DNA from: an uncultured Prevotellaceae bacterium
Lineage (GTDB): Bacteria > Bacteroidota > Bacteroidia > Bacteroidales > Muribaculaceae
NCBI GenBank assembly: GCA_946186575.1
Contig: CAMHNO010000005.1
Location: 49,165-113,164 of the forward strand
Direction of reading: 5' to 3'
Length of the DNA: 64,000 nt
Both the position numbers and the translations under genes were made by a program. This document shows, piece by piece, positions 44,551 through 46,897 of the stretch. Below the pieces are notes generated by a model, which was not told the origin of the DNA, did not search any database, and saw nothing but the letters and a program-made list of their open reading frames with translations. The stretch's first letter is position 1; each line of letters starts with the position of its first letter.

Positions 44551-44826
44551 ATGACTAAAGCAGATATCGTAAGCGAAATCGCTAAATCAACAGGCATCGA
44601 CAAGGCCTCAGTTTTGGAGACTATTGAGAAATTCATGGAAACCGTTAAAGATTCGCTCGCCGAGGGCGAAAACGTTTATCTCAGAGGTTTTGGTAGCTTT
44701 ATCGTTAAGACTCGTTCGCAGAAGACTGCACGCAACATCTCTAAGAATACTGCCATCATCATTCCTGAGCACAAAATACCAGCTTTCAAGCCAGCTAAGG
44801 TCTTCATGGAGCAAGTAAAGAAATAA
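44551..44826 (+). CDS. HU-family DNA-binding protein
   Basis: 91 aa, canonical HU/IHF size. MTKADIVSEIAKSTGIDK helical body, GENVYLRGFGSFIVKTRSQKTARN beta-arm region with conserved RGFGSF, and a PAFKPAKVF end. Histone-like DNA bending dimer. Lies 57 nt before a 30-aa basic peptide gene and then rng, an order I recall from other Bacteroidota. Confidence 0.97.
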   Translation: MTKADIVSEIAKSTGIDKASVLETIEKFMETVKDSLAEGENVYLRGFGSFIVKTRSQKTARNISKNTAIIIPEHKIPAFKPAKVFMEQVKK

Positions 44827-44883
44827 AACAAGAGTTTGTAAATATCACAATCTTTGATTATAAATTTTTAAATTTTAACTACA

Positions 44884-44976
44884 ATGCCAAGCGGTAAAAA
44901 AAGAAAAGGCCACAAAATGGCTACGCACAAGCGCAAAAAAAGACTTAGAAAGAATCGTCACAAGAACAAGAAGTGA
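44884..44976 (+). CDS. 30-aa highly basic conserved peptide
   Basis: Too short for normal gene finding. ATG 44884, TGA 44974-44976. The product begins MPSGKKRKGHKMATHKRKK and ends RKNRHKNKK, with about 60% K/R/H. Similar K/R-rich micro-ORFs lie between HU and rng in other Bacteroidota as I recall, and are compatible with a tiny ribosomal or RNA-binding protein. An A-rich leader with a plausible ribosome-binding zone precedes it. Function is inferred from composition and place only. Confidence 0.7.
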   Translation: MPSGKKRKGHKMATHKRKKRLRKNRHKNKK

Positions 44977-44989
44977 TCTTTCTGATTGA

Positions 44990-45091
44990 GTCTAAAGGTG
45001 AAGGACAAACCAATGTGCAATGAAGCCTCGCCAGCTGTGTAGCTATGCATCGGGTAGGTCGATTTCATTGGTTTGTTCTTTGCATTTAGAC
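44990..45091 (+). promoter_or_regulatory. Long leader hairpin upstream of rng
   Basis: Arms 44990-45015 and 45066-45091: of 26 positions, 22 are Watson-Crick, 3 G-U and 1 mismatched, with a 50-nt loop that contains a small AGCT-type stem. No U tract follows, so it is not an obvious terminator. It lies in the transcript between the basic peptide and rng, a suitable place for RNase-dependent control. Confidence 0.75.
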
Positions 45092-45259
45092 TGATGAACA
45101 AGTTGCAAGCAACTCACACTTGATCATCACGGGCCCACTCGCCTCACAGAAGATTCACAAGAGCAACACATTATATAATATAACATCATAATGTGGTTGA
45201 CCTCAGCAACGAATCTTTTCTTGAAGGAGAGTGTTTTCATTAAACAACACTATTTCACA

Positions 45260-46897
45260 ATGAGAAGTGAACTGATAGTTGACGTCAAGCCCACCAGCAT
45301 CAGCACTGCCTTGCTCGAAGACGGCAGACTGATGTCGTTGCAAAAGGAGCCGAGAGACGCTTCTTATGCTGTGGGCAACCTCTATTTTGCCAAGGTTAAG
45401 AAGCTCATGCCTGGACTCAACGCTGCGTTTGTCAACGTAGGATATGGGAAAGAGGCATTTCTTCACTACCTTGATTTAGGCTCTCAGTTTGCAAGCTATT
45501 CCGATTTCATCAAGCAAGTGCGACAATCGGGAGGGAAGCGACAAATCAATCTCTCGAAGATTAAGCTCAAACCCGACATCGACAAGCATGGCTCGGTTAC
45601 CGACGTGCTCGAGGCTGGACAAGAACTGATTGTTCAAATCTCCAAAGAGCCCATCTCGACCAAGGGACCAAGATTGACCACCGAAATCACATTCACAGGA
45701 CGATTCCTCGTCTTAATTCCGTTTAACAACAAGATTTTGGTGTCGCAGAAGATTAAAGACCGAGCCGAGAAAATGAGGCTTAGAAGACTCATCGAGAGCA
45801 TCAAGCCAAAAAACTTTGGAGTCATAGTCAGGACCTCGGCCGAAAACAAGCGCGCAGCCGAACTGAATAGCGAGCTAAAAGTACTGCTCAAGTGCTGGGA
45901 CGAAAGTGTTGCCAAAATCAACTACAGCGAGCCCCCTTCACTCATCTATGAGGAAGAAAGCAGAGCTGTGAGCTTGATAAGAGACATCTTCAACCCCGAC
46001 TTTGAGAGCATAAATGTGAATGACGCCGAAATCTTTGAGCAAATTCACAACTACGTGAGCCTAATAGCACCCGAGCGAGGCGACATTGTAAAAATCTACA
46101 CCGACGACCAACCCATCTTCGACAGGTTCAACGTCACAAGACAGATGAAGTCGTCGTTCGGAAAAACGGTATCGTTCCGTTCGGGAGCATACATAATTAT
46201 TGAAAGCACCGAGGCGCTGCATGTCATTGACGTGAACTCGGGTAACAGGTCAAGAAAAACCACCGACCAGGAGAGCAACGCGCTCGACGTGAACCTGCTC
46301 GCTGCCGACGAAATAGCACGACAGCTCAGGCTACGCGACATGGGAGGCATCATTGTCATCGACTTCATCGACATGGCCAAGAGCGACCACCGACAAGCGC
46401 TCTACGATCACATGAAAGAAGTCATGCAAAACGACCGAGCACGGCACAACATCCTGCCACTGAGCAAGTTTGGGCTGATGCAGATAACTCGCCAGCGCGT
46501 GCGACCCGCACTCGACATCGTCACCAGCGAAACATGCCCCTCTTGTGGAGGTAAGGGGGAAGTGATGCCTTCGCTGCTTTTCACCGACCTTCTCAAGGAC
46601 AAGATTCACTACCTTGTGAACGACCTTGGAGTGAAAGGGTTTATTATGTATGTCCATCCATTTGTCGATGCCTATCTCAAAAAAGGACTGATTAGCATCT
46701 ACCTGAAATGGAGACGGGAGTTTGGAAGACTTTTCAAAATCATGCCCGATCAGGACCTTGCCTACCTGCAATACAGGGTCATCGACAAGAACAAGCAGGA
46801 AATTGACCTTAGCGAAGAGAAAGACACAAGCAGCTCCTCAAGCAAGAAGGAAAACCGCATGAGGAAACAAAAAGAACAAGACAACGAGAGCGAATGA
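45260..46897 (+). CDS. rng: Ribonuclease G/E family endoribonuclease
   Basis: 545 aa from ATG 45260. N-terminal S1 domain with insertion (about 10-120: VGNLYFAKVKKLMPGLNAAFVNVG), then the 5'-sensor/RNase-H-like region. Catalytic aspartates in LHVIDVNSG and IIVIDFIDM; zinc-link cysteines in CPSCGGKG. The C-terminus is short and K/E/S-rich, without the RNase E degradosome scaffold. It matures rRNA and degrades mRNA. An upstream frame from 45191 is not conserved. The preceding hairpin suggests autoregulation. Confidence 0.95.
   Translation: MRSELIVDVKPTSISTALLEDGRLMSLQKEPRDASYAVGNLYFAKVKKLMPGLNAAFVNVGYGKEAFLHYLDLGSQFASYSDFIKQVRQSGGKRQINLSKIKLKPDIDKHGSVTDVLEAGQELIVQISKEPISTKGPRLTTEITFTGRFLVLIPFNNKILVSQKIKDRAEKMRLRRLIESIKPKNFGVIVRTSAENKRAAELNSELKVLLKCWDESVAKINYSEPPSLIYEEESRAVSLIRDIFNPDFESINVNDAEIFEQIHNYVSLIAPERGDIVKIYTDDQPIFDRFNVTRQMKSSFGKTVSFRSGAYIIIESTEALHVIDVNSGNRSRKTTDQESNALDVNLLAADEIARQLRLRDMGGIIVIDFIDMAKSDHRQALYDHMKEVMQNDRARHNILPLSKFGLMQITRQRVRPALDIVTSETCPSCGGKGEVMPSLLFTDLLKDKIHYLVNDLGVKGFIMYVHPFVDAYLKKGLISIYLKWRREFGRLFKIMPDQDLAYLQYRVIDKNKQEIDLSEEKDTSSSSSKKENRMRKQKEQDNESE

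Follow-up and report, generated by a model that had tools for sequence, protein, structure and literature searches.

Does the long inverted repeat in front of the RNase G gene (rng) control that ribonuclease through its own leader, as the first-pass annotation had proposed, or does it belong to the end of the preceding HU-bS22 transcript? We addressed this question for the window, i.e., the whole analysed stretch of 64,000 nt, as well as for the corresponding loci of its relatives. The relevant features of the window are as follows.

44551..44826, + strand: gene of an HU-family DNA-binding protein (Pfam Bac_DNA_binding, 4.2e-27)
44884..44976, + strand: gene of ribosomal protein bS22 (= bL38; AURKAIP1/COX24 domain), 30 aa, identified by phmmer
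44990..45015, + strand: 5' arm of the hairpin, with the conserved core GGACAAAC at 45003-45010
45016..45065, + strand: hairpin loop, unconserved, 3 to 89 nt long in relatives
45066..45091, + strand: U-rich 3' arm of the hairpin, with the conserved core GTTTGTTC at 45071-45078
45092..45259, + strand: remaining rng leader, 168 nt, differing in length and sequence among relatives
45260..46897, + strand: rng, Rne/Rng family ribonuclease (RNase G; TIGR00757, 3e-128; Pfam RNase_E_G, 8.7e-99)

The hairpin and its neighbours

The bS22 peptide matches the chains 9i5v (3.6e-9), 7jil (1.1e-8) and 8fmw (2.8e-5) in phmmer, while no match was found in Pfam or NCBIfam. The protein was present in all 118 Bacteroidota genomes drawn (118/118). 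For rng, homology places the start at ATG 45260 (MRSELIVDV, conserved in relatives) and not at ATG 45191 of the mechanically called ORF, which reaches 23 codons further in 5' direction. That is, positions 45191-45259 are probably leader rather than protein.

Concerning the hairpin, the annotated pairing was reproduced: 44990-45015 and 45066-45091 form 25 of 26 possible pairs (3 of them G-U, the single mismatch being G-A) around a 50-nt loop, and the structure indeed lies between the 30-aa ORF and rng. A repeat search draws the arms as 44989-45015/45066-45092. Folding the RNA from 44960 to 45120 results in -49.6 kcal/mol, compared to -38.95 +/- 3.75 kcal/mol for 200 dinucleotide shuffles (z -2.84), of which 2/200 fold at least as well.

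Conservation of the stem

Among the named relatives, ruminant MAGs are the nearest, and several of these carry the label Muribaculaceae; named contigs with at least 80% identity (close named contigs) were taken as the same genus as the window. rng was matched in 54/61 genomes of the genus (53 fetched), in 35 named loci, and in 140/148 genomes of the order Bacteroidales (138 fetched, the window's own among them). Within the order, bS22 is located before rng in 137/138 loci. Among the genomes without rng match, 14/15 are also without bS22 match, an indication that these assemblies lack the block as a whole. We therefore did not use loss of the hairpin where rng is absent as an argument, since a single informative case is left.

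A stem was counted when its score reached a cut-off of 18, and expectations were derived from dinucleotide shuffles. Strong stems are found in 122/137 Bacteroidales bS22-rng leaders (8.8 expected), while 15 are below the cut-off; this frequency supports the attenuator discussed below. In the distinct leaders of the window's genus and the close named contigs, the core GAACAAAC/GUUUGUUC is kept in 61/63 cases, such that the hairpin is retained among close relatives. The two exceptions (L116, L117) carry other hairpins. In L116, an unrelated 42-position inverted repeat, accompanied by repeats of GTTTACCG and possibly an inserted element, replaces the usual stem. The arms of L117 (CGACAGACCCACTCGT/ACGAGCGGGTCTGTCG) perhaps represent the usual stem with some A-U pairs turned into G-C.

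The conserved portion comprises the core plus a few pairs on either side, and the outer portion of the window's 26-pair stem is common to few relatives (L007, L028). Since loop lengths vary and reach at least 30 nt in 45/61 leaders of the genus and the close contigs, the 50-nt loop of the window is a feature of its lineage.

Some further elements were observed in the same leaders. A second short inverted repeat (TGTCC-AGCG-GGACA) is located 3' of the hairpin in L100, L107, L112 and other leaders of the genus, and the string CTTCTGCG recurs before the rng start (e.g., in L107). 8-mers of this repeat and of the string occur in 17-22 of 61 leaders, while CTTCTGCG and CCAGCGGG were not found in the window's own leader. 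The 5' end of 16S rRNA reads AGAGTTTGATC. The 3' arm AGAGTTTGTTC of L018, L049 and L051 resembles it, a likeness that fails in other families. According to PMC3985665, as far as this source covers it, the 5' region of 16S rRNA is processed by RNase G in E. coli.

Covariation of the arms

The arms had been expected to covary if the structure is of functional relevance, and they do so. Based on 104 distinct hairpins, 90.5% of the cells pair and double changes are observed at 12/14 pairs. The number of double-change cells (188) exceeds both the shuffled alignments (55.7 +/- 9.3; 0/500 reach 188) and slid versions (11-69), i.e., compensatory changes occur beyond chance, as for a structured RNA, with the caveats that the hairpins were anchored by a search demanding core pairing and that related sequences inflate shuffle tests. 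A tree-based count for 75 leaders is supportive but modest, with 20 compensatory branch events compared to 4-15 when partners are slid by 1-3 columns. The 5' arm is more variable than the 3' arm. We rejected this as proof that the 3' arm is a recognised sequence, since A-to-G changes opposite U produce the same picture under pairing alone.

Sequence forms and locus specificity

To quantify how specific the stem is for rng, we scanned 148 genomes for exact sequence forms, where places within 450 nt upstream of rng are considered to be at rng and the backward-read pattern serves as control. Form A (GAACAAAC/GTTTGTTC, gap 4-34) is found at 29 places, of which 18 are at rng and 11 elsewhere (control 15). 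For form B (AAACCTAAA/TTTAGGTTT, gap 3-30), 20 of 25 places are at rng and 5 elsewhere (control 10). Judged by label, the 18 form-A places at rng belong to 12 families and the 20 form-B places to 17. The window's own copy is outside these exact matches, given its core variant GGACAAAC and its longer loop.

Both forms align over AAAC/GTTT and their differences are paired (one pair changes from C-G to U-A and another from U-A to C-G), from which we infer that they are homologous. Families beyond forms A and B show different stems at the same place, some with clear U runs. A third form (TTACATAA/TTATGTAA) has only 5/34 places at rng, such that no claim of locus specificity is made for it. Counts from a covariance model (R1; based on hairpins with 4-nt loops and applied to the 148 genomes, with 48 candidates scored per genome and strict filters) were also dropped with regard to specificity, because the model missed the window's locus and its matches off the locus look like ordinary terminators.

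Position and comparison with terminators

Within 75 leaders, the stem lies close behind the bS22 stop codon (median 26 nt, interquartile 21-40), as is typical for the stem-loop of a terminator, and is located at a median of 74 nt before rng, with distances to rng ranging from 8 to 284 nt. A GC-rich stem followed by a U run, on the other hand, is not typical of these leaders: the median GC content is 0.30, and in the window no T run longer than 3 is present in the 3' arm or in the bases that follow. The annotated lack of a U tract is thus correct for the window genome.

As a control, we used the hairpins 3' of the rng stop at the same loci. Compared to these, the leader hairpins show a lower median stem GC content (0.30 vs. 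0.54), fewer T runs of at least 5 (23/75 vs. 42/74) and larger loops (median 22 vs. 8). Loops of at least 30 nt are unusual for intrinsic terminators. The GC-poor stem, the reduced number of U runs and the long loops, which prevail in the window's genus, count against an attenuator. A further difference concerns the sequence itself. For 27 order loci (L069-L095), an 8-mer of the 3' arm is shared in 202/351 pairs of leader hairpins, in contrast to 39/351 pairs of post-rng hairpins. Judged by this sharing, the leader stem is under stronger sequence selection than a plain terminator, which also counts against the simplest form of an attenuator.

Stems of terminator-like layout are nevertheless found both elsewhere in the order and at the same place in other lineages. 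Among the inspected off-locus matches of R1, T runs of at least 5 are present in 9/11 on the strand shown and in 10/11 on either strand, and convergent ORFs flank some of the matches. These matches resemble ordinary terminators that are built like the leader stem. U-run stems occupy the same place in four loci of other lineages (L202, L210, L214, L222). One Bacteroidales genome (G073) is without rng match, also within the 732 nt that remain on the contig behind bS22, but shows a terminator-like stem after bS22. Outside the order, we read 30 of 118 bS22 loci, 9 with rng detected downstream and 21 without. While the stem reaches the cut-off in 2/9 of the bS22-rng loci (L158 with a U run, L161) and is below in 7/9, a terminator-like stem was identified by reading in 11/21 of the rng-less loci (L157, L162, L164-L168, L176, L181-L183).

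When set against intrinsic terminators that act as intercistronic attenuators, the hairpin thus shares the succession of A-rich arm, stem and U-rich arm near a stop codon, as well as the occurrence of terminator-like stems at this place in other lineages. It differs in its GC-poor stem, its interrupted U tract, a loop of up to 89 nt, and in a core that is found before rng in 12 families.

A leaky terminator as the preferred reading

The hairpin is real, widespread in Bacteroidales, covarying, enriched at rng, and terminator-like in layout and position. We prefer to read it as a conserved leaky intercistronic terminator, i.e., an attenuator, located where the HU-bS22 transcript ends, and hold belief and doubt about this reading in roughly equal measure. 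The preference is based on several observations. The stem stays near the end of bS22, whereas rng follows at anything between 8 and 284 nt; its layout recurs in ordinary terminators of the order; and a terminator-like stem stands after bS22 both in the rng-less genome G073 and in 11/21 of the rng-less loci outside the order.

According to this reading, RNA polymerase coming from HU and bS22 would meet first the A-rich arm, then the stem and finally the U-rich arm, where the U tract (GUUUGUUCUUUG in the window's lineage) is interrupted by a fixed G and C. The majority of transcripts would stop or pause at the hairpin and a set fraction would continue into rng, such that the output of RNase G would be kept at a low, fixed proportion to bS22. 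That is, read-through of a fixed fraction would, within this proposal, keep RNase G low relative to HU and bS22. Pairing of the U-rich arm back with the A-rich arm may in addition shield the bS22 mRNA at its 3' end. We infer that the polymerase arrives from upstream, that termination is partial, and why selection keeps the sequence fixed; a terminator with its strength set at a partial level would be the simplest account. We also considered and set aside an antiterminator, in which another GAACAA further 3' might capture the 3' arm. Such a copy is found in 3/58 leaders of the genus and in 3/23 other leaders (1.4 and 0.6 expected), which is a small excess.

Alternative explanations

The first alternative is autoregulation, i.e., RNase G binds or cuts the stem in its own leader, which holds its level constant either directly or via faster cleavage elsewhere in the mRNA. 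It is in line with a sequence-conserved, covarying stem that is enriched directly before an RNase gene, and E. coli rne and B. subtilis rny, as far as these are covered in PMC10303841, are precedents for it. In its most elaborate version, the stem would be dedicated to the autoregulation of the Bacteroidota RNase E/G enzyme: RNase G would recognise the paired AAAC/GUUU core and tune read-through or stability of rng, and thereby link RNA decay capacity to ribosome production via the shared HU-bS22-rng transcript. We consider autoregulation rather unlikely, and this dedicated version rather unlikely to the same degree. The stem stays nearer to bS22 than to rng, its sequence differs between lineages, the hairpin persists in one genome of the order with bS22 and no rng, and most bS22-rng loci examined outside the order (7/9) are without a stem at the cut-off. 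The first-pass proposal is thus partly supported. The stem is kept in close relatives, its arms covary, and its sequence is located mostly at rng, as would be expected for a dedicated element. Its closeness to bS22, its resemblance to ordinary terminators, the terminator-like stems at its place in other lineages and in G073, and the bS22-rng loci outside the order without a stem at the cut-off (7/9 of those examined) point to a terminator-like attenuator.

Alternatively, RNase III or another RNase might cut the stem and thereby split the transcript into a stable HU-bS22 mRNA and a short-lived mRNA for rng. RNase III substrates require about two helical turns of duplex, such that 16 continuous pairs or fewer are short. 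The window's long stem with its 25/26 pairs comes near to this length, but at least 20 continuous pairs through the core are found in only 7/75 hairpins, while 60/75 have at most 16; furthermore, cutting of a duplex leaves the fixed sequence unexplained. RNase III of E. coli reduces the expression of rng, but its cuts are in the coding region, as far as described in PMC3985665. Overall, we regard a processing site as improbable.

A terminator-promoter overlap is a slightly weaker candidate still and overall doubtful. Here, the 3' arm would hold the -7 box of an rng promoter on the bases of the bS22 terminator, since TAAGTTTG fits TAnnTTTG, the consensus -7 box of sigma-ABfr, the main sigma factor of Bacteroides, as given in the part of PMC7366714 that is concerned with it. 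For the form-A leaders among L069-L095, which belong to other genera and families, the box is found exactly at the 3' arm in 16/22 cases. Irrespective of its position, it occurs in 38/221 leaders (some of them identical; 23.3 expected). In the window's genus and the close contigs, however, it is at the arm in only 1/61 leaders although the hairpin is kept, and a promoter box has no need for a covarying partner arm. We also rejected a full promoter of -33 and -7 boxes within the leader, since their combination is at chance level (4/221 vs. 3.05 expected), even if the -7 box taken by itself exceeds expectation. The gap between stem and rng shrinks to 8-20 nt in a few leaders, such that a promoter would have to overlap the stem there, which we count in favour of the attenuator. 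For other families, a start site inside the stem has to be taken seriously as a rival, for the window's genus less so.

Finally, a chance inverted repeat or the remnant of a mobile element, which has nothing but the long loop in its favour, can practically be dismissed, given that the hairpin sequence has one match in its own genome, and is thus no dispersed repeat, and that the stem occurs order-wide far above shuffles.

Relation to known systems and significance

The hairpin shares with the E. coli rne 5'-UTR element (as far as described in PMC10303841) that a gene of the RNase E/G family carries a stem-loop in its leader. It differs in its position near the upstream bS22 and is no member of the respective covariance model, since the Rfam search of 44820-45270 reported no family at E-values up to 5. 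The control of E. coli rng mRNA by RNase III similarly relies on double-stranded RNA within the transcript of this enzyme, but there, going by the portion of PMC3985665 on this control, the cut is in the coding region while the stem studied here is intercistronic. For B. subtilis rny, the respective part of PMC10303841 also concerns a decay-initiating RNase whose leader helps to set its own expression, there by autoregulation; in contrast to our locus, cleavage takes place in the 5' UTR and early in the reading frame, and that part describes no such conserved stem. Within the open-licence literature on RNase G/E, bS22 and Bacteroides/Bacteroidota leaders, we found neither a report of the hairpin nor a description of how the RNase E/G-type enzyme of Bacteroidota is controlled.

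Sequence-specific selection appears to act here on what looks like a terminator, and the hairpin would tie the expression of RNase G to a ribosomal protein gene. With a core that is kept before rng across many families, it marks an exact site at which dosage control or autoregulation of this ribonuclease can be examined.
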